A stretch of 64,000 nt of DNA from assembly GCA_964034945.1 (NCBI GenBank), contig OZ035960.1:83452148-83516147 (forward strand), in the 5' to 3' direction. The stretch's first letter is position 1; the number at the start of each line of letters is the position of its first letter. Below the pieces are notes generated by a model. That model was not told where the DNA came from and ran no database searches. It saw nothing but the letters and a program-made list of their open reading frames with translations. This document shows, one piece after another, positions 1,595-62,595 of the stretch. Made by a program: the position numbers and the translations under genes. Origin of the DNA: Chrysopilus asiliformis (lineage: Eukaryota; Arthropoda; Insecta; Diptera; Rhagionidae).

Positions 1595-1734
1595 TATACC
1601 CGTATGGTGAAACCAAAGGGTATATTAACTTTCCCTTACCGTTTGTAACGCCAAGATCCCTTTATCACACACAAAAATGAATTACACCAGTGTGTTTAGA
1701 ATGATAAAAAAAAATTGAATTTTCCATGTCCGTC

Positions 1735-1765
<31 letters not shown>

Positions 1766-2409
1766 GGCGCGGATTGCGGGCGCATGGATTGAGCTAGAGA
1801 CTTGAAATTTTCCGCAGATCCGTTTTTCGTAAAATGCGAGGCTAAGTTCGTTAACCCTAATACTGTCCTTAATAAAAATAACGTATGTCTTCGTGGGTCA
1901 AGAATGACCCTCTACATAGAATACTACACCCGTCACAATTATCAGTGCTCTTCAATGGATTAAAATATGAACAAATAGATTATTGTTATCGGTATTCAAA
2001 AGAAATTTGTTCACTGGGCCTACATCATACAAACATTTTTCATGTAGTTGAGAAGACACTTTTAATTAAAATCGAATTTGGGTCAGAAATGACCCGAGGA
2101 CAGTATGAGGGTTAATGGGCAAAAATGGGGGGTTACCCCCCATAAGAACGAAATCGTTTTTTCCGAATTTCTCAAAAACGGTGCATCTTATCAAAAAAGT
2201 CTAAGAACAAAAGTTATTTAGAATATGATTCTACATAAAACTCCCATACATCAAAATCCGATTGGAACAAGTTTTAAAAAAATCTTATTGGAAAATTTGA
2301 ATTCAAATGAAATTTTGATACGCCGTTCAATTAAATCACCATACGGGTTTTCAATAATTGCCAGATTGGCAATTATAGCTTTCAATAATTGCCAGATTGG
2401 CAATTATAG
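1595..2409 (+). repeat. Repeat family A, copy 2
   Basis: A long copy. It opens with a hairpin (TATACCC ... GGGTATA), continues through TTTGTAACGCCAAGATCCC, a GTCC/GTCT microsatellite and GAGCTAGAGACTTGAAATTT, and ends with an inverted ACCCGTATGGTGA and the AATTGCCAGATTGGCAATT hairpin, which is duplicated here. A 257-bp piggyBac-like MITE interrupts it at 1855-2111. No coding capacity is credible. Confidence 0.8.
1855..2111. mobile_element. piggyBac-like MITE, TTAA target duplication
   Basis: The termini are CCCTAATACTGTCC and its inverse with one mismatch (13/14). TTAA flanks both sides at 1851-1854 and 2112-2115. Other family A copies carry a single TTAA at the same point (GTTCGTTAATGGG), so the empty site is documented inside the window. 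TTAA duplication with CCC termini is the piggyBac signature. The element encodes no transposase; internal GGGTCA/TGACCC short palindromes are visible. Confidence 0.9.
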
Positions 2410-2648
2410 GAAGGTTCTTTTATATATTTCCCCCGTGTTAACCTACCCCTTCAAACCCCTTCCTGCTTGGGATATCGAGTAAAATTCTTTGTATTGTGTT
2501 CAGTACAATATCTGGAAGATTCTTTTATATATTTCTCATCTGCGGACTTATCCCCTCAAACCCTTTGTAATTTTACCTATATTAAAAATTGAAACTAAAA
2601 ACGTTCGAAATAAAAAAAAAATTTTCTAAAAAAAATAAAACCGACTTT

Positions 2649-3186
2649 AAAAAAAACTGAAAAGAGAAAAAAGCACTAAAAAGAAAAAAATAATTTCAAA
2701 CTATGTCCATTAATAGCGTATTTAAAATTCGGCTTTTTTGGAGTGGCGTTAAATTTGCAACTAAAATAAATTACATACTTTCTAACCCTTAAGGCTAATC
2801 GTTTACATACTTTCTAACCCTTAAGGCTAACTAAGAACTAAGATCGACTCCAAAAATTTTGTTGTCAAACTATAGATACGGCTCTTAGAAGCACCAAAAC
2901 TAAGTTCTTTTATGTCCCAAATTGGATTCCCTATTTTTAAGCAATCGCTATAAAAAAGCCCACTGTCTTATATGTTACTATTTTTTGTAGAAATCTATCC
3001 TATTTTTTGTTTCCATGTACAAACTGAATTTGTGCGAAACTTGACAATAGAAATTTTACAACGATTTTATTTAGTGTAAATTTAACGCCACTCCAAAAAA
3101 GCCGAATTTTAAATACGCTATTAATGGACATAGTTTGAAATTATTTTTTTCTTTTTAGTGCTTTTTTCTCTTTTCAGTTTTTTTTT
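2649..3186. mobile_element. MITE with ~108-bp terminal inverted repeats
   Basis: 2649-2756 and 3078-3186 are near-perfect inverse copies containing TATGTCCATTAATAGCGTAT and GGAGTGGCGTTAAATTT. The central 320 bp holds a direct duplication of a TTACATACTTTCTAACCC unit and no coding frame. The flanks do not show a clear target duplication, so the superfamily is unassigned. Confidence 0.8.
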
Positions 3187-3337
3187 ATATAAACTTTTGT
3201 AATATTTTTTTCATCGGGTTTTGCGCACAGACGTAGATTTTGTATAAGAAAGTCATGTCCTGTTTACATCACATATTTTGAACAATAAAATTAAACCACA
3301 ATAATCACAAACAAATAATACTCAAATTTGGTAATAG

Positions 3338-7667: not shown

Positions 7668-8832
7668 TTAGTGCTAAGTTCACGACAGTTAAATTACAAC
7701 CTATCGAGACCATATTTCCTACGGTTTGTTTTACTCCAGGAGTTTACCCAACGTAAATGGAGCAAAGCCATTATCTTGCGATTAGCCACTCTTTGCACTG
7801 TGACTCTATTTTTCTAGATAAGGTCTCTACTCATCAAGATAAGGTCTCTACTTTTCGGTTCCCGTGTTCTCTACTGTTCATAAAGATTTTAAGAATAAAT
7901 TTTAGCTCACCTGGTTCGTTGCTCTAAAGTGTAAGCCACTGGGTCATAGCGGAGTGAGGAATAGTTTTATTTCGTGTGAAAATCATTAAAAAAGGGACAT
8001 CAAAAGGCGTTTTAGGCAAAACACGCTAATTGTAATTCATTAAAGTTTTAGTGTTACTAAATATTGCGATTATATTACAGTAATCGTTACTAATTTTCTA
8101 ACAAAAATGTATCACCAGGTAGAATATCTTACACTTTTCTTTCACTTAAAATCAAGTCATGTGTATTTTAATTTCAATTTTTGGTAGTGTGCCGATCAAA
8201 TTTAATGTTAAACGCTAGAATTTTGTTTAAAATATTGAATTGCTGAAATTTTCGTTACTGGAATAAAATGGAAAAATTCTGACAGCTTCGGTTATTCTAA
8301 TAAAAACATTTCGAGGTTAGATTGGAGCTCGTCTCAGAATGGATTTCCAAAGATTGTTGAGGCCGAAACCAGTCATCATTTTTGTTAGAAGATAAATAAT
8401 ATTAAATTTCTGACGTTATTGTGATTTTCTAGTTTGTATGTTTGGCATTCTATTGCGAATTATGAACTTAATGGTGCTTGATCCGTTGTCGACATTACAT
8501 GGTTTATAGGGTAAACCCATCACTGATTTACATTGAAAACCTCGAGAACTAATTCATGTAGAAAATTTAAATTTGGCGTGCAAGAGGCTTTGGCTAAAGT
8601 TCAGTTTAGCGCCATTGACCACATATTTTTCGTGTATACGGAGGGATAGAGAAAAGTATGCCGTATAGAGAAAAGTATGCCGAGTATTTTTAATCATCAC
8701 TCACCATCCTTGACGCTCCGCTCCGCGACCCCAGGCTACTCCTTACCACTGCCTTTCTCCATCTCACCAAGTTCTAATGTATTTCCCTCTTCATAAATTT
8801 ATTTCACAACAGACCTCTACCCTAGGGAAAAA
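7668..8832. other. Gene-free interval
   Basis: No coding exon or complete transposon was recognised. A short tandem ATAAGGTCTCTACT.. unit lies near 7817-7855, and a GATAGAGAAAAGTATGCCG unit is tandemly repeated near 8645-8683. Confidence 0.4.
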
Positions 8833-9142
8833 ATATTTCCCAAGTACTCCCGAGTCGATTGGAGGATTTTACAAAAATGTCTGTCTGTTTGTCGGTCTGT
8901 CAGCCTATGTACAAGATCTTTTAAAAACTACTGGAGCTCAAGCCATGAAAAAACCATGCAGGATTCGACGTTTTTTATGCCCCCGGGCTAACTTTTGAAT
9001 CAGTTAGGGTCAAGGGGCATTTTCGTGCATCGTTCTTTACAAAACGTTGGTCTTGAAATGGGACGATCCTATCAACTTTTGGTAAAAATCCGTTAACGGG
9101 AAGTAACCAAAATTGCGACTTTTTAAAAATCTGGAACTACGC
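8833..9142 (+). repeat. Repeat family B, diverged copy 1
   Basis: It aligns to the copies at 56350 and 61786 through TTTCCCAAGTACTCC, a TGTCTGTCTGTTTGTCGGTC run, GTACAAGATCTTTTAAAAAC and ATGGGACGATCCTATCAACT. It is older and truncated; the terminal hairpin is not recognisable. Confidence 0.7.
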
Positions 9143-9250
9143 ATTTTTCAGTATTATCTTCGAGACAAAAAATTTTTTTTGAAAATCAGTATTTTACAAT
9201 TTTTTCAAAAATTAAGACAAAACAGTTTTTCAACAAAAAAAAAGAACGAA

Positions 9251-10989: not shown

Positions 10990-12135
10990 GGCACAAAAAT
11001 AGTTAATAAATGTGAAATATAAAGCCTAGTACGCAGTTCGAGTAAAATGAAATTTTAACGCGGTCTCCAAATTGGCACATTAAAACCGAAGTAAAAACTG
11101 TTTGTGGAGAAAAAATATTGACAGCCGAGCACACACAATTAAAAAACCACACTCGTTACGAAAACTGGAAACAGAACCTCTATTATTTTCATCTGTCAAA
11201 TTTTTACCTCGAATTTAATGTACCGAACAGTTAAAATGCTGGTAAAATCAAGTGGAGACTTTCTACACCATCTAGTGAGGCAACATTGCAACATGAGTTT
11301 TTCACATCATTTTACCAGCGAACTGCGTACCGCTTGGTAGAATTTCTGAGGTTAAATTTAAGCGCAGTGTTAAATTTGTATGGAAAATTTCATTTTACTC
11401 GAACTGCGTACTAGGCTTAAGTGTCAAACATGAGAGACGCAACGGCGTTACCAGATGAACTAAATGAGATATGTATTTTGTTCTTAGAAATTAAATACAA
11501 TTCTAAAATAAGTTGTACATTATTTATGTTTGAATAAAGAAAACTAGAAATTCAGTCAAAACTGTTACTGCATTTTTGGTCAAATGTATTTTTTGCTTTG
11601 AAATTAGCATACCGTCGTTTGTAAATTGATTTTGACAGACCGAAGATTTGATATCAACTGCTTTTTAATTTTTTCCTGACAATTTAAATTCAATGTCCAA
11701 TTTCAGCATAAAGTGATGAGTTTTCGTGCCATTATATGAAATGGTGGTCAAAACAGATTTTAATTTTTAAATTTTCCGCATATATAGAGCAACATGTTCC
11801 ATACAAATCGCGGCAGCCGGCGCAAGCAAAAGTATTCATCAATAATATCAATAGATCAATAGCCCGAAAATTATCAAATAATTTTAAAAATTCATAACAT
11901 TCAGAACATTAAAAAACACGCCTAATATCAACAGCAACAAAATCGGACTTGTCAATGCTGTTTGCAAAAAATGTCGATCAGCTGTGTCGCTTTTGTTTAC
12001 ATATTTTTCGATTACAAGTATATATGGCTGTTCTGTTTACTCCAGTGTTTGCTGACTATGAATATGCTATCTGCTCTTTACTCTTATATGTTTAATTGGG
12101 CTATTTTCGAGCTTGTCTTCTGTATTATGTGCTAA
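10990..12135 (+). repeat. Duplicated segment H, copy 1
   Basis: This resembles the reverse complement of about 42390-44220. Landmarks are CGCAACGGCGTTACCAGATG, GACAGACCGAAGATTTGATA, CAGCATAAAGTGATGAG, GATCAGCTGTGTC and ACTCTTATATGTTTAATTGG. The two copies are clearly diverged. Copy 1 carries a PIF/Harbinger-like MITE (11023-11417); copy 2 carries other insertions. The left end overlaps the stop and AATAAA of the exon-like ORF at 10016-11002, so H may be a gene-end duplication or an old transposon. Confidence 0.65.
11023..11417. mobile_element. PIF/Harbinger-like MITE, TAA duplication
   Basis: A 395-bp element with perfect 34-bp inverted termini starting AGCCTAGTACGCAGTTCGAG, flanked by TAA (11020-11022, 11418-11420). 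It sits in segment H copy 1; copy 2 lacks it. The perfect termini suggest relatively recent insertion. Confidence 0.9.
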
Positions 12136-12433
12136 AGATATTAAAATTCTCTACATTTTCTTTGTTTTATCGTATTATCGAAATACTTCAGATTTTGTAA
12201 ATTGAAAATTCATATTTTGATAAAACTAAAATTTTATTCGTCGGGTTATAGTGTACTCGTTAATTGCCCAAGAACGTAGATTTGGTATAGGAAAGTCATG
12301 TGCTGTTCCCATCAGATATTTAAAAATCATGAATGTTGATGACCGTGTATTGTTTTCTCAAAAATATTGCATACTACTTTTTCATAAACACACTATTAAT
12401 AAATATTTAATTTTTTGGACGTTATTTGCATTC

Positions 12434-12912: not shown

Positions 12913-13466
12913 ATTTTTATACCCGTATGGTGAAACCAAAGGGTATATTAGATTTGCCTTACCGTTTGTAACGCCAAGATCCCGTCATCACATAAAAAAA
13001 TGAATTACACCAGTGTGTTTAGAATGATAAAAAAATTGAATTTTGCATGTCCGTCCGTCTGTCTGTCTGTCCGTCTGTAGCGCGGATTGCGGGCGCACGG
13101 ATTGAGCTAGAGACTTGAAATTTTACGCAGATTCATTTTTCGTAAAATGCAAGGCTAAATTCGTTAATGGGAAAAAATGAACCATTAGGGATGGACTATT
13201 ACCCCCCATACGAACGAAAACATTTTTTGCGAATATCTCAAAAACGGTGCATCTTATCAAAAAAGTGCAAGAACAAAAGTGATTTAGGATGTGATTCTAC
13301 ATAAAACTCCCATACATTAAAATCCGATTGGAAAAAAATTTAATAAATCTTATTGAAAAGTTTGACTTCAAAGTGGAATTTTGATGTAACTGTGCCCCGT
13401 TCACTTAAATCACCATACGGGTTTTCAATAATTGCAAGATTGGCAATTATAGCTTTTGTTATGTTT
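12913..13466 (+). repeat. Repeat family A, copy 3
   Basis: Complete from ATTTTTATACCC through the CTGT microsatellite and GAGCTAGAGACTTGAAATTT to the ATTGC.AGATTGGCAATTAT hairpin and TTTTGTTATGTTT. It lies upstream of BubR1. The TTAA that hosts a MITE in copy 2 is empty here (TTCGTTAATGGG). Confidence 0.8.
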
Positions 13467-26450: not shown

Positions 26451-26869
26451 ACACAAAAAAAGTTGTTTTAGTGTTATTCAAGAATTTTTTTACCCTAAAA
26501 TTGAAGGACGGATTTCGAAATTTTATATTATACTATAGCATTAGATAGGATTTTTGGCGGAAGCTCGAAAGAAAACATTATTTCGCTATAGTGTTGGAAG
26601 CATCTGTAGCTGACCAAACAAATCGAAACTTATGGCAGTGTACACGAATTACGGCGAATGCAAGAGTGTGCAAGTGCCTTCACCTTCATTGGCCTGGGCA
26701 CCAATCTTGTATTGCGACGCGTCTGCGTCTTTCATTCGACGCGAAGAAATCGACGCGACTCAATATTGCAATCCTATTTGTTGTTTTTGTAAGTGGGCTT
26801 ATCGGTCCTTTGATATGTTGTGGAAATAAAACCAGAGATCTCTTTTTGGTTTTTAATGTTTAATCATCC

Positions 26870-26901
26870 GACGTTTCGATCATGTATATGATCATCTTCA
26901 G
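26870..26901 (-). ncRNA. Hammerhead-ribozyme-like core, left repeat
   Basis: On the minus strand the core reads CTGAAGA, a stem (TGATCAT ... ATGATC), then GAAAC and GTC, matching the hammerhead consensus CUGANGA ... GAAA with a cleavable triplet. Hammerhead motifs are known in the terminal repeats of Penelope-like elements, usually with very short stem III. Activity is untested. Confidence 0.55.
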
Positions 26902-27165
26902 GGTGCTTATAATGAAGGGTTACAAATTATTTTATTTACTTAATTTTAGTTAATTCTACTTACATTACGTTTTTGGATGAATTTAATAGATCACATATGT
27001 ATAATAAAATAAATAAAAGAAAAAACATTGATTGACGTCATGCATTATTATAAAAACAAGAAAATACGGATTGAATAAGTTAAACAAGACGTCACTGGAA
27101 TGGTTATAAAAGTAAAAGAGAATAATAACTGCTACTGCAAACCCCGATGCGGTTATTTTGGTTTA

Positions 27166-35458: not shown

Positions 35459-36601
35459 TGAGTTTGATTATCAAAATAGTTCAGTTTGTGTATGGCACAA
35501 AGCACACATTCCATTATTTGATCTTGATTGTCAACATACATATCTGACATTGCTGGGGCAAACTGTTCACGAACTGTCAAAATGATAAGTGCAATGGACA
35601 TTTATATCCTCGGTTTGGATAATTCGAATCAAGAAAAAACTATCAATTTACGCCTAATTAGAAGGACACTGAAATCACTGAAACCATTTAAATCATCGGT
35701 AAAAGTTTCCCATAACTTCGTTTTCTTGGTTTTCCCCATCGCATTTTTTTCGAGTGAACCTGTGGTAAGTGACGGATTTTCGCCCATAAATTTGACAATA
35801 GCCGCCAACTGATGGTTGTTTGTCTGTTCCCTATAAATTAGTTGTGATAATAAAATATAATGTATATTTAATTTGGTGTTATTTACTTTGGTTTTGGCAT
35901 TGTTTTAAACCACTTCTTACGAAATTAATTGCAACGAAGTAAACGCCAAAGTCTTTATCGACGCTAGTCAATGCGTCGTAAGGTTTATGTCGAAGTTTGT
36001 TCGACGCGTCGAGCTACATGATCGACTTTTGTTTTGTGAGACGCGTTTATGCAGACGCGTCGCAATACAAGATTGGTGCCCTGGGCTACGTTCAACTTGA
36101 TGCCGAACTTTGGTAAATAAAGTCAGGATCGCTCCTGTAATTCTTCCCTTAGCCAAAATGAGTTTAAGGGCCGGATTTAAAGTGTCGAAGTTTCGATTGC
36201 GACAAAAAGTTAATTCCTATAATAAAAATTTACTAATATTTACTATAATTCCTATAATAAAAATTTACTATACAAAATGTTCGAAATATTTAAAACGGTT
36301 CGAAACTTCTCGAACAGTCAACAGTTTTCCGATGGCCGCACTCTAGTATTATACAGTCACTCTAACCAGGCAAGGCCCCAAACCCGAACATGTCGATTTT
36401 GCTGATTTGTGGATATGGTATAGTAGACCAAAAACTAAGCGATACGTTTTTTTATCTGTGGGAAAACAGTTTAGAGGACAAAAAATCGTTTTTTGGCCAT
36501 AACACGGCAACCAGTAGTCGACAACCAGTAAATAAATTTTAAGGGAGTTTTTATATTGTTTGGAGCCAGACTCCTCCCAATTCTTTAAATGATGCATTTA
36601 A

Positions 36602-36965
36602 AGGTAGAACCTGAATCGTACGTCAATGCGTCCGTCATGACAGTTCGATGCGCTGACAGTTGGTTGCGGCAACGAATCTGGAGTTAACTCATTGTTTTGC
36701 ACTTCTTCTATTAGTTTATCGTCGAAACAATTACTTTCAATTTGTTCCATACTTAAATTGCTTAAATCGTAAACAAACTTTTTTGCGAAATGACATTTCC
36801 GTGCGTTGCCGCATGTAAAAGTAGAAATTCGACCTACTCTATGCGGTTGCCGCATCGGAAAACGCATTATTAAGGGAGTACTCATAGCAGCCCGTTGATA
36901 CTACTCGAACTGTCAACCGGACGCACGCATGACGGACGCATCGACGTACGATTCAGGTTCTACCT
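36602..36965. mobile_element. PIF/Harbinger-like MITE with conserved ORF, copy 1
   Basis: 364 bp, ends AGGTAGAACCTGAATCGTAC and inverse, flanked by TAA (36599-36601, 36966-36968). A minus-strand frame from ATG at 36885 runs through the element (MSTPLI..RFPMRQPHR ... CGNARKCHFAKKF ... EEVQNNELTP) and is shared with the copy at 40144. No match to a known family was recognised; it could be a captured exon. Confidence 0.85.
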
Positions 36966-38348: not shown

Positions 38349-38627
38349 ATAAGTTTTTAATGGTTTTTTAGATTTGTAAATCGGTCATGTTGTTCAAAAA
38401 ACAAGTTTTGGCTTAATCCCAGTATATTGTAACGGGATCGGATGGGCTCCTTTGAACATTTGCAGAATATAACATCAGAAAATTAACAAATAAATGTCTT
38501 TATTTCAGTTTCTTAAATAATCACAAACTCAAACTCTAAGTACTCTATTTTACAATACAATGTCCGATCTTAATTCAATAACTCACAATTTATAACACTT
38601 TGCAATACAAAATCGCTATTTCTCTTA

Positions 38628-39074
38628 CACCGCGTCTTGATTAACAATTTTTCATCCCAAGAAATATCTCACCGCAATGAGATTTTTTTGACAGCTGGGC
38701 CGAAAATCTCTTGAAATTTTAGTACTCAAAATAGCGATGTAAAGAAAACACATAGTCGCCGCTCTTGCAATTAATGCAATACGTGAAATTGAAAAGGCTG
38801 AAACAGAAGAACAGACGAAAAGAAAAACCTCTTAATGTTATATATTCTCTTCCAAAGCTTTTTGTATCGTATTGTTTGTAAAAATTAGTTTTTTTCGCAA
38901 CTACTTGTCGGGAGAATTTAGATACCGCCATCTTGAATTGGGAAATTCCAAGAAATTTTGCAATTGCAAGATTTCTTGAAATTTATCTCTGGGATTTTTT
39001 ATCGCCGTTAACTCGAGTTCTGATTGGTCAATCAAAAATCTCTGCGATGAAAAATCCCAAATCAAGACGCGGTG
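38628..39074. mobile_element. PIF/Harbinger-like MITE, tandem copy 1
   Basis: 447 bp, ends CACCGCGTCTTGATT / AATCAAGACGCGGTG, with TTA at 38625-38627 and a shared TTA at 39075-39077. A 70-codon minus-strand frame (38719-38931, MAVSKFSRQVVAKKTNFYKQ...) is conserved in the neighbouring copy. Confidence 0.9.
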
Positions 39075-39077
39075 TTA

Positions 39078-39523
39078 CACCACGTCTTGATTAACAATTT
39101 TTCATCCGAAGAAATATCTCACCGCAATGAGATTTTTTTGACAGCTGGGCCGAAAATCTCTTGAAATTTAGTACTCAAAATGCCGATGAAAAGAAAACAC
39201 ATAGTCGCCGCTCCCGCAATTAATGCAATACGTGAAATTGAAAAGGTTGAAACAGAAGAACAGACGAAAAGAAACACCTCTTAATGTTATATATTCTCTT
39301 CCAAAGCTTTTTGTATCGTATTGTTTGTAAAAATTAGTTTTTTTCGCAACTACTTGTCGGGAGAATTTAGATACCGCCATCTTGAATTGTGAAATTCCAA
39401 GAAATTTTGCTATTGCAGGATTTCAAGAAATTTATCTCTGGGATTTTTTCTCGCCGTCAACTCGAGCTCTGATTGGTCAATCAAAAATCTCTGCGATGAA
39501 AAATCCCAAATCAAGACGCGGTG
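39078..39523. mobile_element. PIF/Harbinger-like MITE, tandem copy 2
   Basis: 446 bp, same orientation and about 95% like copy 1. It starts CACCACGTCTTGATT and ends AATCAAGACGCGGTG, followed by TTA (39524-39526). The pair is arranged TTA-element-TTA-element-TTA, with one TTA between them. Confidence 0.9.
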
Positions 39524-39862
39524 TTAGCACGTCTCTTATCACTGTAAAATTACTTGCTCACCAGAGGTACTGTAGTCGATTGGATCGCTTTTGATTCAAA
39601 CTTCAAAATACCGCTAGTTGACTTTGGGGCACTATTTATACGGGTATCTGGCGTACTAGGAAGTTGTGGACGTTTCTAGATCCTTTCAGAGGATCCTTGT
39701 GGCCTAGAATCTTCGCCATTTGTCTGGAAGGTTCTAGTGGGTCGCCATTTTTCTCGAATATTTGTTTTATGTTGGCTCACCTGATGACTCGGGTTGCTGC
39801 TTCGCTGGAAGTTGTGTTTTTTAACGATGCTGGCGTTTTACTACCCCTTTTTTAGATGATTG

Positions 39863-40143: not shown

Positions 40144-40510
40144 AGCTAGAACCTGAATCGTACGTCGATGCGTCCGTCATGCGTCCGTCCGGTTGACAGT
40201 TTTATGCGGTGACAGTTGGGTACGGCAACGAACCTGGTGTTAATTCATTGTTTTGCACTTCTTCTATTAGTTTATCGTCGAAACAATTACTTTCAATTTG
40301 TTCCATACTTAAATTGCTTAAATCGTAAACGAACTTTTTTGCGAAATGACATTTCCGTGCGTTGCCGCATGTAAAAGTAAAAATTCGACCTATTCTATGC
40401 GGTTGCCGCATCGGAAAACGTATTATTAAGGGAGTACTCATAGCAGCCCGTTGATTTTACTCGAACTGTCAACGTGACGGACGCATCGACATACGATTCA
40501 GGTTCTAGCT
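40144..40510. mobile_element. PIF/Harbinger-like MITE with conserved ORF, copy 2
   Basis: 367 bp, ends AGCTAGAACCTGAATCGTAC and inverse, flanked by TTA (40141-40143, 40511-40513). Same family and orientation as 36602-36965. It lies within the gypsy pol region, between integrase and RNase H remnants. The 79-codon minus-strand frame differs from copy 1 at about seven residues. Confidence 0.9.
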
Positions 40511-40513: not shown

Positions 40514-40983
40514 CTCTCTATTTGGACGCAATGCTTACACTCCGGTTTGCATGGTTGACGTGGTAACGAGTCGGCGTTATTGTGGTCTCGTCCTTTCCTA
40601 TATATTATTTCGAAGTCGTAAGTTTGTAGACGCTCCAGCCACCTGGCGACTTGTCCTTCAGGGTTTTTAAACTTAACAACCACGTAAGTGCGGCATGGTC
40701 GGCCCGCAAAATGAATTGCTGTTCGTAAAGGTACCTATGGACGTTCTTTGATGCATGGATTACCGCTAGCAATTCCTTTCTTGTAACGCAATAGTTACGT
40801 TCGGGCTTTGACAGGACTTTGCTGTATGCAATCATGTGTTCCTGTCCATTTTGCTCTTGTGAAAGTATTGCACCCACATCTGTATTACTGGCATCCGTGT
40901 CCAGAATAAAACGCTTGCCGGGTACTGGATATGTTAGGATTGGTGCTGAGTATAACTGGTTTTCCAGCATAAATATTTCGAAT
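40514..40983 (-). pseudogene. Ty3/gypsy RT end and RNase H remnant
   Basis: Minus-strand reading gives LYSAPILTYPVPGKRF, then RNase H: ILDTDASNTDVGAILSQ, AYSKVLSKPERNY, RKELLAVIHA and LRADHAALTWLLS. A frameshift near 40650-40680 leads to VARWLERLQTYDFEIIYRKG and DHNNADSLPR, the RNase H end and connection of gypsy pol. It is truncated before the RT catalytic box. With the integrase remnant and LTR it forms one decayed element. Confidence 0.85.
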
Positions 40984-42389
40984 ATAGAGAAATACCGATA
41001 TTGAAAATACGTATATTTAACGTAATGAATGTATGAGAAAGTGAAGTAATGTCCCTTATAGTAGTAAATTTTTTTTTTTCGAAAATAATTAAGGTACTCT
41101 AGTCTTGTTTTTGATATTTTAAAACATAATTTTTTGACATTTGACTGTCTTGCCATGGAAACACTAGTTTTCTCTATTATCCACTGTGGATTCTTCAGGT
41201 GAGTTGGTGCAGTTTTTGTTTAAGGAAATTGTAGATTTTTTGTAGAATTTTTGTGGTAAGAACCGTGAATTTTAATTGGAATTAAGATTGATTAAATTAT
41301 CTAAAATTAAGTAAGCTTTCAATCGCATTTTACTACGAAACAAATTTTCGTCTTTTCACTTTTACAAGAGTAAATTGGATAAATGTTACATCATCTATTA
41401 CTTGTTGATTAATTTCTTTTTTTTTGTTTGGTCTTATCAATTTCTTTTTGAACATATGTAAAAGGTTCTAATATTTTATGAAGGGAGTTCCCTAGATTTT
41501 TCAATTCAACTGAATTTAATGAAATACGATATTTTGTTAATATTACATAATGGCATCTGTGCACAAAATATTTTAGGTTCTAATAGTGTTAAAAATATAA
41601 TTGATTTTTTAAATTGAGAACTCATCACATGCCACTTTCACATGAGTTTTCGCAAAAATTCGTGCCAAACAAATTTTTGTATTTTCGGTGACCTAAATTT
41701 AACCTTATGTTCTCCTAAATTTTACAATGTTTCAAATCAATTTTAAGAAATTTGTCCTTATCAATCTCGAGGTTTTTTTTTGTAAAAAAGTGTGTTCGTT
41801 TTTGGCATTTTATTTGTTATTTAGCACAGATATAAATGTATCTTGATTTTAAATTTGGATACCGATCTCAATTTCTTTATCGATTTGGTGTCAGTGGCAG
41901 AGAACTTTTCTATTATTTATATTTAGGAAACGGGAAAAAAATCTTATTCAATTCGTTTTATCAACATTTCTATGGCAAAATCCCAAAATTATTTAATTTA
42001 CATTTTTCCCGAGCTGGGGATAAAAGAGTGCGAAGTGTGATAATAAAGCAAGTGTGAGTAAATTCATGATTTTTATACTTCTCTAACGAAATAATGGCAC
42101 TTGTGGAAATTCCCATATGGTTTGATTTAAAGATTTTATAGTCCAATTAGAATAAAAGATTGGAATTAAAAAGCCATAGAAATTGATACCCTATAGTCTA
42201 TTTCAATTTATATATATTTTTTAATTTTTTTAAATATATTTTACAAATTTTTGTTAGGACATAATATGTACGTATTCTACAAGCCAATGTAACTGTTAAG
42301 CATACACAATAAAATAAAACAAAATTAAATGCAGTTGACAGGCTGCAACGCAATCTGGTAGTGCATCCACCAAGTTCAGCACTACAGCA
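40984..42389. other. Gene-free interval
   Basis: AT-rich sequence with no recognised exon, transposon end or tandem array. The short frame at 41836-42057 has no family resemblance. Confidence 0.4.
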
Positions 42390-42791: not shown

Positions 42792-43420
42792 ATTTTTATA
42801 CCCGTATGATGAAACCAAAGGGTATATTAACTTTGCCTTACCGTTTGTAACGCCAAGATCCCGTCATCATACACAAAAATGAATTACACCAGTGTGTTTA
42901 GAATGATAAAAATAATTAATTTTTGCATGTCCGTCCGTCTGTCTGTCTGTCCGTCTGTCTGTCTGTCTGTCCGTCTGTCTGTCTGTCTGTCCGTCCGTCT
43001 GCCTGTCCGTCCGTCTGCCTGTCCGTCCGTCTTTCTGTCTATCTGTGGCGCGGATTGCGGGCGCACGGATTGAGCTAGAGACTTGAAATTTTGCGCAGAT
43101 CCGTTTTTCGTAAAATGCGAGGCTAAGTTCGTTAATCGGCAAAAATGGACCATTAGGGGGGGGGGGGGGGGGGGTACCCCCCATAGGAACGAAAATGTTT
43201 TTCGCGAATATCTCAAAAACTGTGCATCCTATAAAAAAAGTGCAAGAACAAAAGTTATTTAGAATATGATTCTACATAAAACTCCCATACATCAAAATCC
43301 GATTGGAATAAATTTTAAAAAATCTTATTGGAAAGTTTGACTTCAAAGTGGAATTTTGGTACAACTGTTCGAATTTTGACACGAATATCACCATACGGGT
43401 CTCCAATGATTGCCAGATTG
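42792..43420 (+). repeat. Repeat family A, copy 4, with expanded microsatellite
   Basis: Typical head and body. The GTCC/GTCT microsatellite is expanded to about 120 bp (42928-43046), and a run of about 18 G lies at 43157-43174 where other copies have 7 or fewer. The right-end hairpin is cut in half (TTGCCAGATTG only). Confidence 0.8.
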
Positions 43421-44229: not shown

Positions 44230-46340
44230 TCTAACCAATTAGAATGCCAAGCTCTGAGTATTTCTGGGTTTTTCGTTTTTGGTTACATCGGTTTTTTTCT
44301 GTGGAGGTTTGTCTTCTGTATTCTGTAACTATAGTCAAAGGCGTCAGTAGAGTCATATGCAGGGGGAGGGAAGATGCATTTATTTATAAAAAAACATTGG
44401 ATGTATTTGTTATAGTTAATGACAAGATAGAAAAATTCAATTTTGGTCAAATCCATCCACAAAAGTTTTCAAGTCGCTAGTTCAACGCGTTCTAGAGTTA
44501 TTTGACATAACATAGAGACGGACAAAACAACAGACCGACGGACAAATATACGGAAATCCTAGTAATTTTCGCAGATACGGATCTCAGGTTAATCAGAAAG
44601 TTCCAATTTGTCAATGTTTTCATTTTCACTGGTTTTTGACGGATTTTTGGTTAAAGGAATTTCGATTTGACCTTATTTGCGAGCTTACGGTTTGGAAGAA
44701 AATATCAATAAAAACATTAATTTAGAGACCTTTTTGTAACCGAAAACTGCAATTTTGACTCAATATTTGTAAATTTGGATTCAATTGGCGGTTTAGTGAC
44801 AATAACATTTAACAGGACATACCGCAAACCGTTATGGGTCGTAGCTTCTGGAATTTCAGGTAGATTTTTTATTTCCTTAAGACACTGCACCCTACAGACT
44901 TTTTATTGTGTCATAGTTGGTTTGATCAAATGGCATTTGGCTGAATGAAACTATGCACACTTGTCGATTACAATTTCCATAAATTTAACTTTTTTTTATT
45001 GTTATTATTGCGAGTATTCAAGCTTATGATCTTATAATGCAAATTCTTAAGAGCAATTATCATATTAGTATTTCACATGTTTTAATTTATAATACAATTC
45101 CGATTGTCTCGAGAAAATTGAATATACTTTAAAATTTATTGATAATCAGGTGGTATGGAAGTTAATACATCAACTTTTTTTTTACTAAGCTAACTAAACT
45201 ATCACTGAACTATCAATAAACATATGAAACCTGGAACGAATTTTGAGAACGTAAAAAATTCCGCCGGAAATAGACTTTAATTTTTTTTGTAAAGTGATAA
45301 TTTGACTATTTTGACGCTAAACCACAGATATAATATAACCAAGATAGCGCTAACTGCTATCTCAATTGAGCTAGGAAATTACACGTAATTCCAAAGGAAG
45401 AGTGAGAATAAAATATTTAAAAATTGACAAATAAAAAGGTTGAATTGCTTTTATAGTCTGTTTGCACTCTGCTCAGCATTTTTTTATATCCCTTTATTGC
45501 TTACGTTAAAATTTGAACTGCCAGCTACATTGAATAGAAATGAAAGAAAATATATATTGTTTTCAATTTTCCGTCTATGGTTGTTTGAAAAGGGCATAGT
45601 TGCCATGAAAAACTATTTAACTTTTTATCAAAAATCTGACAAAACTCAATTCCAATGAATATAAAGGATAGCGATATATATTCTCGGACCATTTTATTTT
45701 GTAACTTTATATGACGTTTTAAACGACTGACCTGCCTCTTGTTTAACTTCCCTTAATGCTAGGACTACCCATTCTTTAATAATACTTCAAAATTTGAAGT
45801 TTACAGCGCAACCATATCCAAAGCTATATAAGAGTCGTAAAATCGAAAATTTCAAGAAATTTCCTTTTTAAACACTGACAATTTATATCAAATTGTATAT
45901 GGAGGGCGACATTGTCGCCGTAATCTATTGCCGTAAATGTTGTGTCGGGACAATTGTATTTAGCGCTTTATACTATAGTTTTGAAATTTGAGGCCTAGAC
46001 TGAATTGATATATGATTTTTTGAAAAACTAAATAGTTTAAGCATGTTATTGATTTTTTACTGTCTAATAAGGTTAAGTTATATAACAATAGCATTACCAT
46101 AGAAAATCATTGGTCTCTGTCAAATTAAATTAATTAATTTGGTTATCATCTATTGAGGCAATTAGATATTTTTTCCATCAAATAAAACATTAATTTTTTC
46201 AGCTTCATATTAGTTTACTTTCAATTTCACATTAGTTATTGTGTATCTACTGAAGTCTTACAATGGTGAGAAAAATTCGCGAAATAGACTTCGCTTAAAA
46301 ATAACTTGGGTCATAGTTTTTAAAACAAATCGTAATAGAA
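44230..46340. other. Gene-free interval
   Basis: No exon recognised. A GACGGACAAAACAACAGACC stretch near 44518-44550 recalls the tails of family A/B-like repeats, but no boundaries could be set. Confidence 0.4.
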
Positions 46341-46561
46341 AACAACAAAAGCTTCAATTGCCAATCTGGCAATTACTGAAAACCCGTACTGTGATTTAAG
46401 TGAACAGCGAACAGTTGTATCTAAATTCCACTTTGAAGTCAATCTTTTCAATAAGATTTATTAAAATTTATTCCAATCGAGTTTTGATGTATGGGAGTTT
46501 TATGTAGAATCATATCCTAAATAACTTTTGTTCTTGCACTTTTTTTTTGATAAGATGCACC
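46341..46561 (-). repeat. Repeat family A, copy 5 (3' module only)
   Basis: It contains the end hairpin (AATTGCCAATCTGGCAATT), the CCGTACTGTGAT junction and the TATGTAGAATCATATCCTAA block, then stops at GATAAGATGCAC. The microsatellite half is missing. Confidence 0.75.
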
Positions 46562-47886: not shown

Positions 47887-49525
47887 TTGATAGTTTTTGA
47901 TTTAATTACCAATATTTCAAAAATTAAATCAAGTTCCATAAAATTGATTGATTTCTTGTGACTTGGTGTTAGCCATAAAATGTTTAAAAAAAGTCATAAA
48001 ATTATAAATTGCGTCATTGTTTAAACCCCCATCCTAGAAACATATTAATCAAAAAACTAGTTGCTGAATAAATGAAATTTCCACTGATTTCTTCAAGTAA
48101 ACTTGAGTCGTTGCCTGTATTTAATGCAAATACAAACGTATCTGCGAGTATACTTAACGTGCCATGCACGGCTTTAACTAAACCAATCAACTTTCCAATC
48201 GAACAGTGTTAAATCAGCATTTGATCTTGTCGGTCACATATTTTTGCGTTGAAATACATTTTGTTGGAAGCGTTTGAGCTATCAAACAAGTTATACATAT
48301 CGCTTTTAAATATAAATATTGGTTCTGGTCTTATCTTGGAAATTCGGTACGTATAAGTGGTTATAGATTATTCAGCATTTTTTTATCATAATGTTTTTTT
48401 TTTGTGGGTTTTACCTTTATCATGTCTTTAATTATCACATACTGTATATCCGGTTCAATTATGTATGAAAATCTACATATGTTAAATATTTGTCTTTCAC
48501 AATATCCAAATAAAGGTCAAAGAATCTGGTAATGTTACAATCGTTTTTTCTGCATCCAATTTATCCAAAGTGCCGTACTATGTCATTGACGCATGATGAC
48601 GTTTATTATAATATTTCATCGCGTGAATTATTGGCAAGTTATGAATTGTTTTTTAAACATTATTTGACATACATAACTTGCTTAAAAACATTTAATTTGG
48701 CCTTGGGTATTTTTTTTCTCAGAAAGTCAAAATCACTTTCTAGGTGTAGATGTTAGTTTACAGAATAAAATCGCCTTTTCAATTTTATCATTCCCTGCAA
48801 ACGTTTTACTTTGAATTTATAAGTTCGATATATAAACTTTCATATTTACATTGATGTCGACCGGTTTTAGTTTCAGTTATATAATGAAATATAGTGCCTA
48901 CAAATAACCTCGAAATATTAATTTGTTCAACTATATTTTCCAAATTATCAGTCTGTTTGTAAAATCAACATTTTTGCACTAGTTTCTAGAATACGATTTT
49001 ACATTACTTTTTCATACATTTAAAATGTCATTTCGTAATTGAACTCGATGTCGTATAAAAGAAAGCATTGGAAAAAGCTTTCGATATATATTTGATCATT
49101 CAACTGGCCATTGGCCAAGGTGGAACAAAAAAGTATTTCAATCCACGTGAAAAATTTGGATGGATCATTTAGTTCACCTTCTCTGTGTGTACTGGGGTAT
49201 ATTCTTACCCCATTAAAACTTCAATAAAAAGTTTTGGCCCGAAACAACACGCAAATCAAAGAAACAACCGTCCGTAATCATCCTGAGCTGTCTTCCCCTA
49301 AGCTCTGGCTGGAACTATAGAAAAAATTACAATGTGAAACGCATTTTTCTTCAAACATATGGACGATCAGCAAGTGCTTTTCTTGGAATTTTCAGCTCTG
49401 CTCTCTAGTTTTCGACATTGAAACCCATTTTGACTGTGAAAATCAATTTGGATAACATTTGCATGGATTTCTATGAATTTATCAACACTGTATGCAGCGG
49501 GTGATTGAGAAAAACGTGTGTAGTT
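47887..49525. other. Gene-free interval
   Basis: AT-rich, with no exon or transposon end that I can support. The frame at 48532-48756 has low-complexity AT-driven composition. Confidence 0.4.
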
Positions 49526-50085
49526 AAAAACATAACAAAAGCTATAATTGCCAATCTGGCAATCATTGGAGACCCGTATGGTGATATTCGTATCAAAATT
49601 CGAACAGTTGTACCAAAATTCCACTTTGAAGTCAAACTTTCCAACAAGATTTTTTAAAATTTATTCCAATCGGATTTTGATGTATGGAAGTTTTATGTAG
49701 AATCATATCCTAAATAACTTTTGTTGTTGGACTTTTTTGATGAGAAGCACCGTTTTTGCGATATTTACAAAAAACGTTTTCGTTCGTATGGGGGGTACCC
49801 CCCCTAATGGTCCATTTTTGCCCATTAACGAACTTAGCCTCGCATTTTACAAAAAATGGATCTGTGCAAAATTTCAAGTCTCTAGCTCAATCCGTGCGCC
49901 CGCAATCCGCGCCACAGACGGACAGACGGACAGACAGAGGGACGGACATGCAAAATTCAATTTTTTTTTATCATTCTAAACACACTGGTGTAATTCATTT
50001 TTGTGTGTGATGACGGGATCTTGGCGTTACAAACGGTAAAGCAAAGTTAATATACTCTTTGGTTTCACCATACGGGTATAAAAAT
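49526..50085 (-). repeat. Repeat family A, copy 6
   Basis: A complete copy in inverse orientation, from AAAACATAACAAAAGC and the AATTGCCAATCTGGC hairpin through GGGGGGTACCCCCC and the GGACGGACATG microsatellite to ACGGGTATAAAAAT. Very similar to copies 3 and 7. Confidence 0.85.
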
Positions 50086-52539: not shown

Positions 52540-53125
52540 AATTTTTATACTCTTTTTATACTCATATAGAAGTATATTAGATTTAGTATATCGTTTGTAA
52601 CACATCGAACCAATCATCGAACACAAAAATGAACTACACCAGGGTGTCAGTGATGACTAAAGATTTTGATTTCTGCATGTCCGTCCGTCTGTCAGTAAAC
52701 CCCATAATTTTCGAAAGGATTAGAGCTAGAGACTTTTTTTTATAGTTTCAGTCAAAGCTTAGGGGAAGAACCTATAATGACGAAGCACAGCTCAGGATGG
52801 TTGGAAGAACGAAAGGAGATGTCGGCAGGTTATAGTCCGGGGGAACATTCCTAAACTTTACTGTACGAAACTGGGGAGGCTCAAGGAAGAAGTCGTGCGC
52901 GCGTGCAGCTGCACTTGAAATTTTATAAATGGCATGGCTAAGTTCTTGAACGGGCAAAATTGGACCATTCCTTTTCCCCTCGCCCATACAAACGAAACAA
53001 CAACGAATTTTGCAATTTTTTCGAAAACGGTGAGCTATATTGAAAAATTTTATAAAGGCAAAATGTGTTTAGGATAGGATTTTACATAACTCATCCATAC
53101 ATCAAAATCCAATCGAACCACTGCT
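52540..53125 (+). repeat. Repeat family C, diverged relative of family A
   Basis: It begins ATTTTTATACTC with a TATACT...AGTATA hairpin, then TTTGTAACACATCG, AATGAACTACACCAGGGTG, TGCATGTCCGTCCGTCTGTC and GAGCTAGAGAC. It ends with ACATCAAAATCCAATCGAA. The order of blocks is the same as in family A while the sequence between them is different. Confidence 0.7.
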
Positions 53126-56349: not shown

Positions 56350-57246
56350 ATTTTTACTTTCTTCTACGGAGTATAATAAAGTATTGTATTCATGAAAAAT
56401 TTCGACCTCTTAATTTTGCCTAAAAAACATTTCCCGATTACTCCTGAGTGGATTGGAGTCATATTTAAAAAATGTCTTTCTGTCTGTCAGTGTGTCTGTC
56501 AGTCTGTGTACAAGATTTCTCAAAAACTAATAGAGCTAGCGACATGAAATTTTATAGGCATGTTGGGTCCTGAAATGGGACGATCCTATCAACTTTTGGC
56601 GGAAATCCGTTAACCGGAAGTATCCAAAATGGCAGTTTTTCAAAAATCGCAATTTCGATTTTCTCGATTTACTCCCAAACTACGCGTTTTTTAGTGGCCT
56701 TAAGTATGACTAAACTTGGAGAAAATAAAATTTCCCACACTTTTGTCTTTAGCTATAACTCGATATCTCAACCTGTTATCGAGATAAACCGTTATTTCCA
56801 AAAAAACAGTTTTTTGCGATTATCTCGAAGACTAACGGGTTTTTGCTGACTGAATGTATGAAGTGAATTAATGAGAATGACATTCTGCACAATTTTGTCT
56901 TTTACCGTTATCCGTTATCTTTTACCGTTATTGAGATATTTTCATTAATATGTAAAAAAACATATTTTTGCGAATAATTTGCAAACTAACGGTTTTTCGA
57001 CAAATCAGTTAAAAGAATAATTAAAGATGTTAACATTTTCTACATTTTTGCCGTTTACCGTAAATTGATATCTTTTACCGTTCTCAAGTTATCTCAAATT
57101 TTGTACGTTTTTGATATTTTTGGATGAAGCAACAATTTATTGGGAGGTCGTCTTAGGTTGAAAACGCGACAGGGCTCTAGCGTAAATTGCACAGGGTCGT
57201 AGATTTTGTAGAAGAAAGTTTTGTGTTGACCACAACTGATATTCTA
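56350..57246 (+). repeat. Repeat family B, copy 2
   Basis: A full copy. TTTTTACTTTCTTCTACGG with a TACTTT ... AAAGTA hairpin, GTATTCATGAAAAATTTCGA, a TGTCTGTCAG microsatellite, AGAGCTAGCGACATGAAATT, GGGACGATCCTATCAACTTT, several CCGTTA/TAACGG words, and an end at TGACCACAACTGATATT. More than 90% like 61786-62595 by eye. Confidence 0.85.
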
Positions 57247-57290
57247 AATATTAAAAACTTTACGTTTTCAAACACTTTTTAAAGGCCATA

Positions 57291-58051: not shown

Positions 58052-58610
58052 AAAAAAAACCTAACAAGTGCTATAATTGCAAATCTGGCAATTATTGAAA
58101 ATCCGTATGGTGATATGGCATTGTTCGAAGTTTAATTGAACAGCGAGCAGTTGTATCAAAATTCCACTTTGAAGTCAAACTTTTCATAAGATTTTTTAAA
58201 ATTTATAACAATTGGATCTTGATGTATGAGAGTTTTATGTAGAATCATATCCTAAATAACTTTTGTTCTTGCACTTTTTTAATAAGATCCACCGTTTTTG
58301 AGATATTCGCAAAAAAAGTTTTCGTTCGATTGGGGGTGCCCCCCTAATGGTCTATTTTTGCCCATTAGCGAACTTAGCCTTGAATTTTACGAAAAACGAA
58401 TCTGCGTAAAATTTCAAGTCTCTAGCTCAATCCGTGCGCCCACAATTCGCGCCACAGATGGACAGACGGACGGACATGCAAAATTCAATTTTTTTATCAT
58501 TCTAAACACACTGGTGTAACTCATTTTTTATGTGATGACGGGATCTTGGCGTTACAAACGGTAAGGCAAAGTTAATATACCCTTTGGTTCCACCATACGG
58601 GTATAAAAAT
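58052..58610 (-). repeat. Repeat family A, copy 7
   Basis: Complete and inverse, ending ACGGGTATAAAAAT. The microsatellite is reduced to GACAGACGGACGGACATG. It lies about 750 bp upstream of Alas. Confidence 0.85.
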
Positions 58611-59012: not shown

Positions 59013-59361
59013 CTTTAAGAGGGGCGAAAATACAGTTGATTTAACTTTGAAAACATCTTTTTAGAATAGGTCTAAAAATGGTCTATATGAATTTGATATC
59101 TTGTATCTATAGAAAATTTGAGTACGCAATGTCACTGATGCAAAAATTTAATATTTTATGTAAAATGTTTTTTAATCTCGGGTTTTAAAATGTGAAATCC
59201 CGGGAATCGGGGAATCCGCTCCAGGGAAATCGCGGGAAGCACCCATTAATTCACACCCAACGAAATTGTTTGTGATCAAAAACTAAGCAAGAAAATTTTA
59301 ACTTTTCTTTTTGTTTCAGATTTTTTCTGGTCATTTACGTACGGTAAGCAGCATTAAGAAG

Positions 59362-61155
59362 ATGCCTTGCCCATTCTTGAGCCGTTTAAGCGCAAGCTAC
59401 GTCCGCAATTATGCTCCTGTACTTCTTCAAACTTATGGAGCTCAGTGCCCCGTCGTGTCGCGTACGATTTCATCCCTAAGCGATAGCAACAATAATTCCG
59501 GTGAGAATAACATCAACAACAAGTTGATTGAAGCAGCTGTCCAGCAGGTTCGCAACATGAGTTCACTGCAGCAACAAGAGCAGCAGCAAGCTATTGACGA
59601 AAAGTCGCAGCAATCGAATTTGACGGGTGTTTCATTAACTGAAAAGAAATGTCCATTTTTGACTGCTGCCCAGGCCAACAATAATTCGTCGTTGGTGAAG
59701 GAAGTGCGGGAAGAAATTCAAGACATTCCCATGCAACGTTCAACATTCCCATATGAGGATTTCTTCCATGAGCAGATTATGAAGAAGAAAAAGGATCATT
59801 CCTATCGTGTATTTAAGAAAGTCAATCGGTTAGCAGGGGCTGGACAGTTTCCAACTGCACTGGAATATTCTTGGGGTGAACGTCCAATAACGGTTTGGTG
59901 CTCGAATGACTACTTGGGCATGTCATGCCATCCAGAGGTCAAGCGTGCTGTAGGCAATGCTCTTGAGGAACATGGCGCCGGTGCTGGAGGCACCCGCAAT
60001 ATCTCAGGAAACTCCTTGTTTCATGAACGGCTTGAATCTCGCCTAGCAAAACTACACCAGAAGGACGCGGCTCTACTCTTCACTTCCTGTTTCGTCGCCA
60101 ACGATTCGACTTTGTTCACTTTGGCCAAACTGTTGCCGAACTGCCACATATTCTCGGATGCAGGAAACCACGCCTCAATGATACAGGGAATACGCAATAG
60201 TCAAGTACCGAAGCATATCTTCCGACATAATGATCCTCAGCATCTACGCGAGTTACTGCAGAAAGTTGATAAAAACATACCAAAAATTGTGGCATTCGAA
60301 ACGGTACATTCGATGACTGGTGCTATTTGCCCATTGGAAGAATTATGCGAAATCTCTCATGAATATGGCGGGATTACATTTGTTGATGAAGTACACGCGG
60401 TTGGTCTGTATGGTGATCATGGAGCTGGTGTGGGTGAACGTGACAACCAATTGCACAACATGGATATAATTTCGGGAACTCTGGGAAAGGCTTTTGGTAA
60501 TATTGGAGGTTATATCGCTGGATCTTCTCATCTCATCGATATGATTCGTTCTTATGCTGCTGGCTTTATTTTTACGACTTCTTTGCCGCCAACGGTTCTA
60601 TGTGGTGCTTATAAGGCCGTCGAAATCTTAGCCTCGGAAGAGGGACAAGAGTTGAGAGCACGCCACCAAGACAACGTACGTTACTTGAGAAATTTGCTAC
60701 AACGTGAAGGTTTTCCCGTCGAGCATACACCAAGTCATATCATTCCGGTTAAGGTAAACTTATTGAGCATTTTCATATTTGAAACAAAACTTTAACTTTC
60801 GATATTGCAGCTTGGAGATCCACAAAAATGTACTTACATATCTGATTTGCTAATTCAACAATATGGCCATTATGTACAAGCTATCAACTATCCGACGGTT
60901 GCTCGCGGTGAGGAGAAACTTCGTTTGGCTCCCACTCCATTCCATACTCATTCTATGATTGATCAATTGGTTACCGACATGAAAAAAGTTTGGAAACAAC
61001 TGGGGATACCACTTAATGGTCCAACGTGTTCGGAACAGTGCTCTTTCTGTAGTCAACCAGGATTGTTCGATTATTACGAAGCTCGGGTACGAGGATGTGC
61101 TTCAAACATCGCATGTGAAATACCAAACTGCCCACGTATGGTTGCGGCCGCATAA
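59362..61155 (+). CDS. Alas: 5-aminolevulinate synthase, mitochondrial
   Basis: Condenses glycine and succinyl-CoA to 5-aminolevulinate in the mitochondrial matrix, the first and controlling step of heme synthesis. Coding exons 59362-60753 and 60811-61155 (57-bp intron, GTAAAC...TTGCAG) give 578 residues. The exon begins at an acceptor (TTTTTGTTTCAG, to 59319), so a 5'UTR exon lies upstream. The ATG at 59362 is chosen because it gives MPCPFLSRL, the conserved first heme-regulatory motif; the frame is open back to the acceptor. Cys-Pro motifs at C3, about C28 and about C97 (KKCPFL) lie in the N-terminal targeting region and suggest heme feedback. PLP-enzyme motifs: [34 protein letters not shown] and SGTLGKAFG with PLP lysine K376. 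The C-terminus has [11 protein letters not shown] and Cys-rich [12 protein letters not shown]. Complete and apparently functional. Confidence 0.97.
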
Positions 61156-61361
61156 TTGCTCAAATAGTAATTTTGAGAGTAATCAAAAGAAGAAAATATA
61201 TTAAAAGTAAATTTCAAAATTTCCTTATATACTTATATGTCTCCAATATAATTTCGTTGTTAATTTGCAAAACTTTATTTCCATTTCTTTTTGGGACTGT
61301 TCATGTCTACTTTATATTTTTTCGTTATTTTTGACGCTGAGCGTAACTTAATGTTGTTGAC

Positions 61362-61367
61362 AATAAA
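61362..61367 (+). terminator. Alas polyadenylation signal
   Basis: AATAAA 207 bp after the stop, in CAATAAATGG; no nearer canonical signal. Confidence 0.5.
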
Positions 61368-61785
61368 TGGTGATAGCATGCAAAATATTGGTTTTTTTAT
61401 TATTAGATGCAAATGTAGTTTCCCCTAGGAACCAGATCTAAACGTGTGGTTTGAAGGCGCAGATTTTCTCGACACTCGTGCACACGATCAAAGTTTTTTC
61501 TGGAGTCGTATTTGGCCGTGGCTTGGTTGGGTCAGCTGTGGGTCAAAAATATAAAAAAAAACTGTTGATTTCCAAATTTATATACAGGATGTATCAGATC
61601 TAGAGGCTAATCCTGAAACGGGTGATTCTATGGACAATTTCATGCAAAAAATTGTATGGGAGGTGGTGGTTCATCACATAGAATTACAGGGTGTATAAGA
61701 AAAGGGGGCTAAATGTGCATTTACATATTGAATCGAAACTCTTAAACTAATAAACAGATTTTCTTCAAGTCATACTTTTTACTTT

Positions 61786-62595
61786 CTTCTACGGAGTATA
61801 ATAAAGTATTGTATTCATGAAAAATTTCGACCTCTTAAAACATTTCCCGATCACTCCTGTCAGTCTGTCAGTCTGTCTGTCAGTCTGTGTACAAGATTTC
61901 TTAAAAACTAATAGAGCTAGCGCCATGAAATTTCATAGGCATGTTGGGTCCTGAAATGGGACGATCCTATCAACTTTTGGTGGAAATCCGTTAACCGGAA
62001 GTATCCAAAATGGCGGTTTTTCAAAAATCGCAATTTCGTTTTTCTCGATTTACTCCCAAACTACGCGTTTTTTAGTGGCCTTAAGTATAACAAAACTTGG
62101 AGAAAATAAAATTTCCCACACTTTTGTCTTTAGCTATAACTCGATATCTCCACCTGTTATCGAGATAAACCGTTATTTCCAAAAAAAAAACAGTTTTTTG
62201 CGATTATCTCGAAAACTAACGGGTTTTTGCTGACTGAATGTATGAAGTGAATTAATGAGAATGGCATTCTGCACAATTTTATCTTTTACCGTTATCCGTT
62301 ATCTTTTACCGTTATTGAGATATTTTCATTAATATGTAAAAAATCATATGTTTGCGAATAATTTGCAAACTAACGGTTTTTCGACCAATCAGTTAAAAGA
62401 ATAATTAAAGATGTTAACATTTTCTACATTTTTGCCGTTTACCGTAAATTGATATCTTTTACAGTTCTCAAGTTATCTCAAATTTTGTACGTTTTTCTTA
62501 GGTTGACAACGCGACAGGGCTCTAGCGTAAATTGCGCAGGGTCGTAGATTTTGTAGAAGAAAGTTTTGTGTTGACCACAACTGATATTTTGAAAG
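61786..62595 (+). repeat. Repeat family B, copy 3
   Basis: The same landmarks as copy 2 over the whole length. Two deletions relative to copy 2 are seen, about 45 bp before the microsatellite and about 40 bp before the GACAGGGCTCTAGCG block. It lies downstream of Alas. Confidence 0.85.

Follow-up and report, generated by a model that had tools for sequence, protein, structure and literature searches.

Repeat families with a common core block in a 64-kb stretch of the Chrysopilus asiliformis genome are very probably DINE-1/HINE-type rolling-circle transposons

We analysed a 64-kb stretch of the genome of the fly Chrysopilus asiliformis (the window, to which all positions refer) for three repeat families, A, B and C, and conclude that they are very probably short, gene-less, non-autonomous rolling-circle transposons of the DINE-1 type, also known as Helentron-associated interspersed elements (HINEs). 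A first-pass annotation of this DNA had described A, B and C as unrelated-looking families with one layout, had guessed at a function in mobilisation, rolling-circle-like or of an unknown class, and had pointed to a Drosophila repeat of similar organisation. The shared layout is real, but it is that of a class of mobile DNA already described and not of a new one. While the rolling-circle-like guess and the Drosophila repeat led to DINE-1 and the Helentron-associated elements, the unknown class had to be given up, as the published structure fits: inverted repeats at both ends and a 3' stem-loop match it, so that no unknown class is needed. The outcome that the annotation had named as refuting its idea, namely that the repeats are fragments of ordinary classified transposons, is largely what we find, given that the elements fit the known DINE-1/HINE class. 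Repeats that had been puzzling thereby find a place in a class already known, and a single 64-kb stretch contains two HINE families that differ in their ends and agree in their core; apart from the shared core at fixed spacing this is routine transposon annotation.

Results

Subterminal inverted repeats and 3' stem-loop

According to PMC2374699, the defining parts of a DINE-1 element are subterminal inverted repeats (subTIRs) of 13 bp, a partial inverted repeat adjoining the 5' subTIR, and a GTCY microsatellite in block A; below the 3' subTIR, at a distance of a few nt, there is a 3' stem-loop of 7-11 nt. To find subTIRs, we compared the first 40 nt of a copy with the reverse complement of its last 110 nt and took the longest exact match, using the three full-length copies of family A, i.e. 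A3 (12913-13466, plus strand), A6 (49528-50085, minus strand; 558 bp, the reference copy) and A7 (58057-58610, minus strand), as well as the two near-complete copies of family B, B1 (56351-57250, plus strand) and B2 (61776-62595, plus strand). At its 5' end A has the sequence ATACCCGTATGGTGA, whose 13-nt part ACCCGTATGGTGA recurs at the 3' end of A3 and A6, 10 nt of it being matched exactly in A7. B1 and B2 carry a 12-nt subTIR, ACTTTCTTCTAC, which is different from that of A. Per 1000 shuffles the observed length was reached by none for A3, A6, B1 and B2 and by two for A7; per 1000 random stretches of the window, with the repeat copies not excluded, it was reached by 6 (A3), 4 (A6), 9 (A7), 3 (B1) and 3 (B2). 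Helentron families are defined by an identical subTIR of at least 11 bp according to PMC4067079; A3 and A6 with 13 nt and B1 and B2 with 12 nt reach this length, and A7 with 10 nt stays below it. Since the subTIRs of A and B differ, the same rule places the two in separate Helentron families.

In A the 3' subTIR is followed by a stem-loop, ATTGCCA-GAT-TGGCAAT, whose perfect stem comprises 7-10 bp in all six copies examined (A4, the end of which is cut inside the hairpin, was left out of the count), a length reached by 0.3-3.8% of random 45-mers. The stem-loop of B, TTGTG-TTGAC-CACAA, has 5 bp in both copies, which is within the 5-10 bp of the palindromes described for mite HINEs (PMC4067079) and under the 7-11 of DINE-1. 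The first-pass annotation had taken the 5' hairpin, the microsatellite and the block behind it as the architecture of the repeats; this picture was incomplete, since the diagnostic features, the 3' subTIR and the 3' hairpin, had been overlooked.

Short, gene-less elements with inverted repeats near both ends might also be miniature inverted-repeat transposable elements (MITEs) that are moved by a cut-and-paste transposase recognising these repeats, and DINE-1 itself was once termed a MITE (PMC2374699). The position of the repeats makes this very unlikely. The 3' repeat is not terminal in any of the five copies: it lies 34-46 nt inside the end, i.e. 44-46 nt in A and 34-36 nt in B, the end of B having been set where the copies stop matching (for B1, where its match with B2 stops), and the stem-loop follows. 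Moreover, the flanks of A3, A6, A7, B1 and B2 show, as provisionally judged by eye, no duplication beyond the T runs. We thus rejected a MITE of a cut-and-paste transposon in favour of a DINE-1/HINE element.

T-rich 5' end, microsatellite and core block

Of nine 5' ends that could be read, seven start with TTTTTA (A3, A4, A6, A7, C, B1 and B2), in agreement with the T run reported at the start of the repeats, and two have TTTA instead, namely A2 at its junction with A1 and the fragment B4. In A the 5' inverted repeat reads TATACCC..GGGTATA, with 7 bp in four of five copies and 5 bp in A6; it is TACTTT..AAAGTA in B1 and B2 (6 bp; 4 bp in B4) and TATACT..AGTATA in C (6 bp). Downstream of it lies a microsatellite of GTCY or GTCTGTCAG units, which extends over 119 bp in A4, and the block common to the families, GAGCTAG-GAC-TGAAATTT. 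The DINE-1 core of D. melanogaster presumably resembles this block.

A search of the window with the core pattern GAGCTAGNGACNTGAAA, allowing up to three mismatches, gave 11 matches where 1.05 were expected, a number reached by none of 100 shuffles. Five matches are located within A (1791, 13104, 43072, 49872 and 58412), two within B (56533 and 61914) and one within a partial B copy (8934), while the match at 44467 (minus strand) is a degraded core of a possible fourth family, D; those at 39921 and 57320 were taken for chance matches. The block of C (52723) escaped this search, being interrupted by an insertion. The distance from the last microsatellite unit to the start of the core is 25 bp in seven of nine places (five in A, two in B), 26 bp in C and 34 bp in the degraded D. 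These distances were taken with a pattern that does not match B3, whose core is degraded, and that accepts ATCTGT as last unit besides GTCNGT, which is needed for A4 and A7. Hence, the order of a microsatellite followed by the GAGCTAG block, as first annotated, is indeed shared between families. Further downstream, local search revealed central direct repeats in B, with self-matches offset by about 152 bp (seen in B1) and 62.5-64.7% identity; the same search showed none in A.

A and B have a common core and dissimilar ends

We compared A and B by local alignment scores, using one copy of each (A6 and B1). The 5' parts gave a score of 12, reached by 62 of 300 shuffles, and the 3' 110 nt a score of 8, reached by 270 of 300, so that by this measure there is no resemblance at either end; the 25-bp spacer between microsatellite and core scored 4 (75 of 300 shuffles). 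The 60 nt from the start of the core, however, gave a score of 17, which was reached by one of 300 shuffles and by none of 2000 random 60-mers from outside the repeats, and a second, weak match in the centre scored 25, a value attained by no shuffle out of 300 and by one random stretch out of 400. A and B thus have the core, the order of parts and the spacing in common, and their ends are dissimilar.

The dissimilarity outside the core could mean that A and B are unrelated elements, each of which acquired the same microsatellite-linked motif by convergence or capture. We regard this as improbable, as the order of the parts and the 25-bp spacing are identical in A and B, the core score and the weak centre match are as rare as stated above, and such a core is, in the description of PMC2374699, a constant of DINE-1 that persists despite species-specific subTIRs. 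Most simply, A and B would descend from one ancestor, their ends having changed fast to match their own proteins; fast change of the ends is plausible since subTIRs also differ between Drosophila species (PMC2374699). The DINE-1 core was first delimited to 33 bp and later extended to 90 bp, the central repeats are variable, and a functional significance of the core has been proposed (PMC2374699). This proposal can now be tested between families of one genome and not only between species.

A bolder idea, which we put forward tentatively and think rather unlikely to be right, is that the end of the microsatellite, the variable 25-bp spacer and GAGCTAG-GAC-TGAAATTT act together as a single functional cis element at fixed spacing, for example a helicase-loading or host-factor site, round which Helentron families swap their ends, the subTIRs and both ends having been replaced. 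If such an exchange of ends took place, the core would mark lineage better than the ends that are currently used for classification.

Copies in the window

Copies were inventoried by local search with one copy per family. Family A (about 555 bp) has seven copies. Besides the three full-length ones these are A2 (1595-2409, plus strand), which contains an insertion and a duplicated 3' hairpin unit at 2349-2409, A4 (42792-43420, plus strand), with its microsatellite expanded to 42928-43046, and two 3' fragments, A1 (1290-1598, plus strand) and A5 (46339-46561, minus strand), both with the 3' hairpin. A1 is 90.9% identical to A6 over positions 253-558 of the latter and has the subTIR with one mismatch, as judged by eye. 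All ten pairs among A2, A3, A4, A6 and A7 are 88.7-94.0% identical over ungapped columns. The insertion in A2 (1855-2111, about 257 bp) has TTAA on both sides, where A6 has a single TTAA, and inverted ends, CCCTAATACTGTCCT and AGGACAGTATGAGGG, that were recognised by eye. PiggyBac elements duplicate TTAA, and the insertion resembles a MITE of the piggyBac type, with A6 as the sister copy showing the empty site.

Family B (about 820-900 bp) comprises the two near-complete copies, the partial copy B3 (8828-9178, plus strand), which consists of microsatellite, degraded core and the following stretch (78% and 76% identity over two pieces), and three weaker fragments: B4 (1058-1132, minus strand), a 5'-end fragment of a B-like element with 77% identity; a B-like 3'-end fragment at 3221-3289 (plus strand; 72%, E 4e-7); and a weak, diverged B-like 3' part at 12133-12327 (plus strand; 61%, E 2e-8). 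The single copy of C (52541-53113, plus strand) has an 11-bp 5' end that is present twice and a core that is split by an insertion at about 52736-52928; the start of this insertion resembles the minus strand of 49291-49326 (89% over 36 nt). C is 71% identical to A over 52541-52696 and 69% over 52921-53113, i.e. in its 5' and central parts, and is therefore a divergent form of A, without a plan of its own. The further family D is tentative and consists of a degraded microsatellite and core at 44420-44545 (minus strand).

These counts leave the first-pass family sizes intact for A (seven, two of them 3' fragments) and C (one) and alter them in part for B, where three copies had been given and three weaker fragments had not been counted. 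Likewise, the impression of unrelated-looking families holds for the ends of A6 and B1 and fails for C.

Proposed movement and points against the assignment

DINE-1-type elements are described as non-autonomous partners of Helentrons that have T runs at their ends and do not modify their target (PMC4067079), inserting between TT (PMC2374699). By analogy, a Rep-helicase-endonuclease would act in trans, encoded by an autonomous Helentron at another place in the genome of the fly; this protein would recognise the subTIRs and nick the T-rich 5' end. A single strand would then be displaced, displacement ending at the 3' stem-loop, and the copy would be inserted at a T-rich site with no duplication of the target. 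A and B might be served by separate Helentron families, because their subTIRs differ, and the segment from microsatellite to core may be an ancestral cis module.

A1, a copy truncated at its 5' side, is joined at about 1590-1600 by its 3' end (...GTTATGTTT) directly to the 5' end of A2 (TTTATACCC) in a head-to-tail arrangement, with three Ts instead of the five found at seven other complete ends. In addition, the 3' hairpin unit of A2 is doubled in tandem (31 bp, 100% matching). The junction looks like a product of read-through or re-insertion and, together with the doubled hairpin, fits rolling-circle movement without proving it; such structures could also arise by nested insertion and slippage.

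Several observations weigh against assigning the repeats to DINE-1/HINE. First, the hairpins are partly weak. The hairpin annotated at the 5' end was recovered as an inverted repeat in A, B and C, but singly it means little: a stem of 7 bp, as in most A copies, occurs in 6.7% of random window 45-mers, one of 6 bp, which is all that B and C have, in 18.8%, and the 4 bp of B4 in 84%. In minimum-energy folds of the first 60 nt the 5' stem is present in A3 and A7, and A6, B1 and B2 are predicted to adopt another structure. The 5-bp 3' stem of B is reached by 28% of random 45-mers and is thus not above chance, and in the C copy of the window no 3' end was recognised. Second, Rep, PIF1 and RPA domains are found in none of the 29 open reading frames (ORFs) of at least 110 amino acids (aa) in the window (E 0.001), shorter ORFs not having been scanned. 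An Exo_endo_phos_2 match belongs to an ORF of the long interspersed nuclear element (LINE) type that also carries reverse transcriptase and RNase H. Third, a search with the left and right flanks of eight places (nine copies), each flank taken separately, found no flank pair side by side and thus no empty site in the window. Matches were one-sided or at unrelated places, the longest comprising 224 nt at 71% to the left of A4, so that the exact ends are provisional and the TT target is putative.

No transposase for A, B or C was seen in the window's ORFs of at least 110 aa, which could be taken as a sign of a new class of mobile element, as allowed for in the first-pass annotation. We give this reading almost no credence, as A has all DINE-1 features that are testable in the window except for the central repeats, and B has the subTIR, the microsatellite, the core and the central repeats, with weak hairpins. 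The DINE-1/HINE assignment is the one that we retain.

Other elements and genes in the window

Further repeats and genes were found in the window. Inverted arms of 111 nt at 2649-2759 and 3075-3185, 99% complementary and separated by 315 nt, apparently constitute a young fold-back element. At 26772-29832 a 793-aa ORF with a reverse transcriptase domain is located between 288-nt inverted arms of 98% complementarity; Penelope-like elements can have inverted terminal repeats, and this one looks like such an element, apparently a recent one. The LINE-type element at 30132-35467 (minus strand) has a pair of ORFs: the larger one (1198 aa) carries endonuclease, reverse transcriptase and RNase H, and the upstream one (558 aa) is without Pfam match, CCHC-like motifs being visible in it by eye. 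The element may be young, as both frames are open. A direct pair of 293 nt (36638-36930 and 40194-40486; 94%, 3.6 kb apart), with an ORF for a reverse-transcriptase-type RNase H just outside (40605-41219, minus strand), possibly represents the long terminal repeats of a broken element. The region 38625-39526 is a direct tandem duplication of 449 bp (96% matching). The ALAS gene at 59302-60795 marks the window as fly DNA: the best of the 120 matches listed is to a protein that carries the name of Hermetia illucens (78%), and every named match above rank 63 comes from a fly.

Comparison with known elements

Relatives were also sought outside the window. The core pattern with 18 set letters had no match in viral_contigs or genome_contigs, two collections that may omit entries close to the genome of the window. 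With 15 set letters it matched eight places in viral_contigs, which we take as chance because none of them is preceded within 120 nt by three GTCY/GTCA units. Four exact core and subTIR strings had no match in literature text, a result of little weight as such sequences sit in figures and supplements.

The closest likeness is to the Drosophila elements called DINE-1, INE-1, mini-me or SGM, with which the repeats share, by the description in PMC2374699, the 13-nt subTIR, the adjoining partial inverted repeat, the GTCY microsatellite, the block A core, the 3' stem-loop and the T-rich ends, and, in B, the central repeats. Several Drosophila subTIRs contain ATACCC, as does the 5' inverted repeat TATACCC of A. 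The subTIR sequence as such is another one, and 11 of 12 Drosophila species have one type each (PMC2374699), whereas at least two families are present side by side here. From Calliphora vicina two DINE1-like families are described, Helitron2_Cv and Helitron3_Cv, with 40-41 copies each in 600 kb (PMC3630058). According to this description they resemble our repeats in a 5' subTIR with an adjoining inverted repeat, a GTCY proto-microsatellite and a 3' hairpin, and differ from the lengths given above for A and B in that one has 750 bp, with an 11-bp subTIR and 9-bp stems, and the other about 395 bp and no 3' subTIR (PMC3630058).

HINEs are also described from Culex and the mite Metaseiulus (PMC4067079). 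These are similar in having subTIRs (12-15 bp in the mite), a 3' palindrome, a T-rich target, which is a putative one in A and B, and, in some cases, microsatellites or tandem repeats; those of the mite are unlike A and B in that their subTIRs are palindromic and that they have neither a 5' inverted repeat nor a core. Canonical Helitrons, finally, were considered and rejected. They have a 3' hairpin as well, but the 5' TC and 3' CTRR ends by which PMC2374699 characterises them are absent from A and B, whose ends read TTTTTATACCC ... ATGTTT in A and TTTTTACTTTC ... in B (the 3' end of which is inexact).

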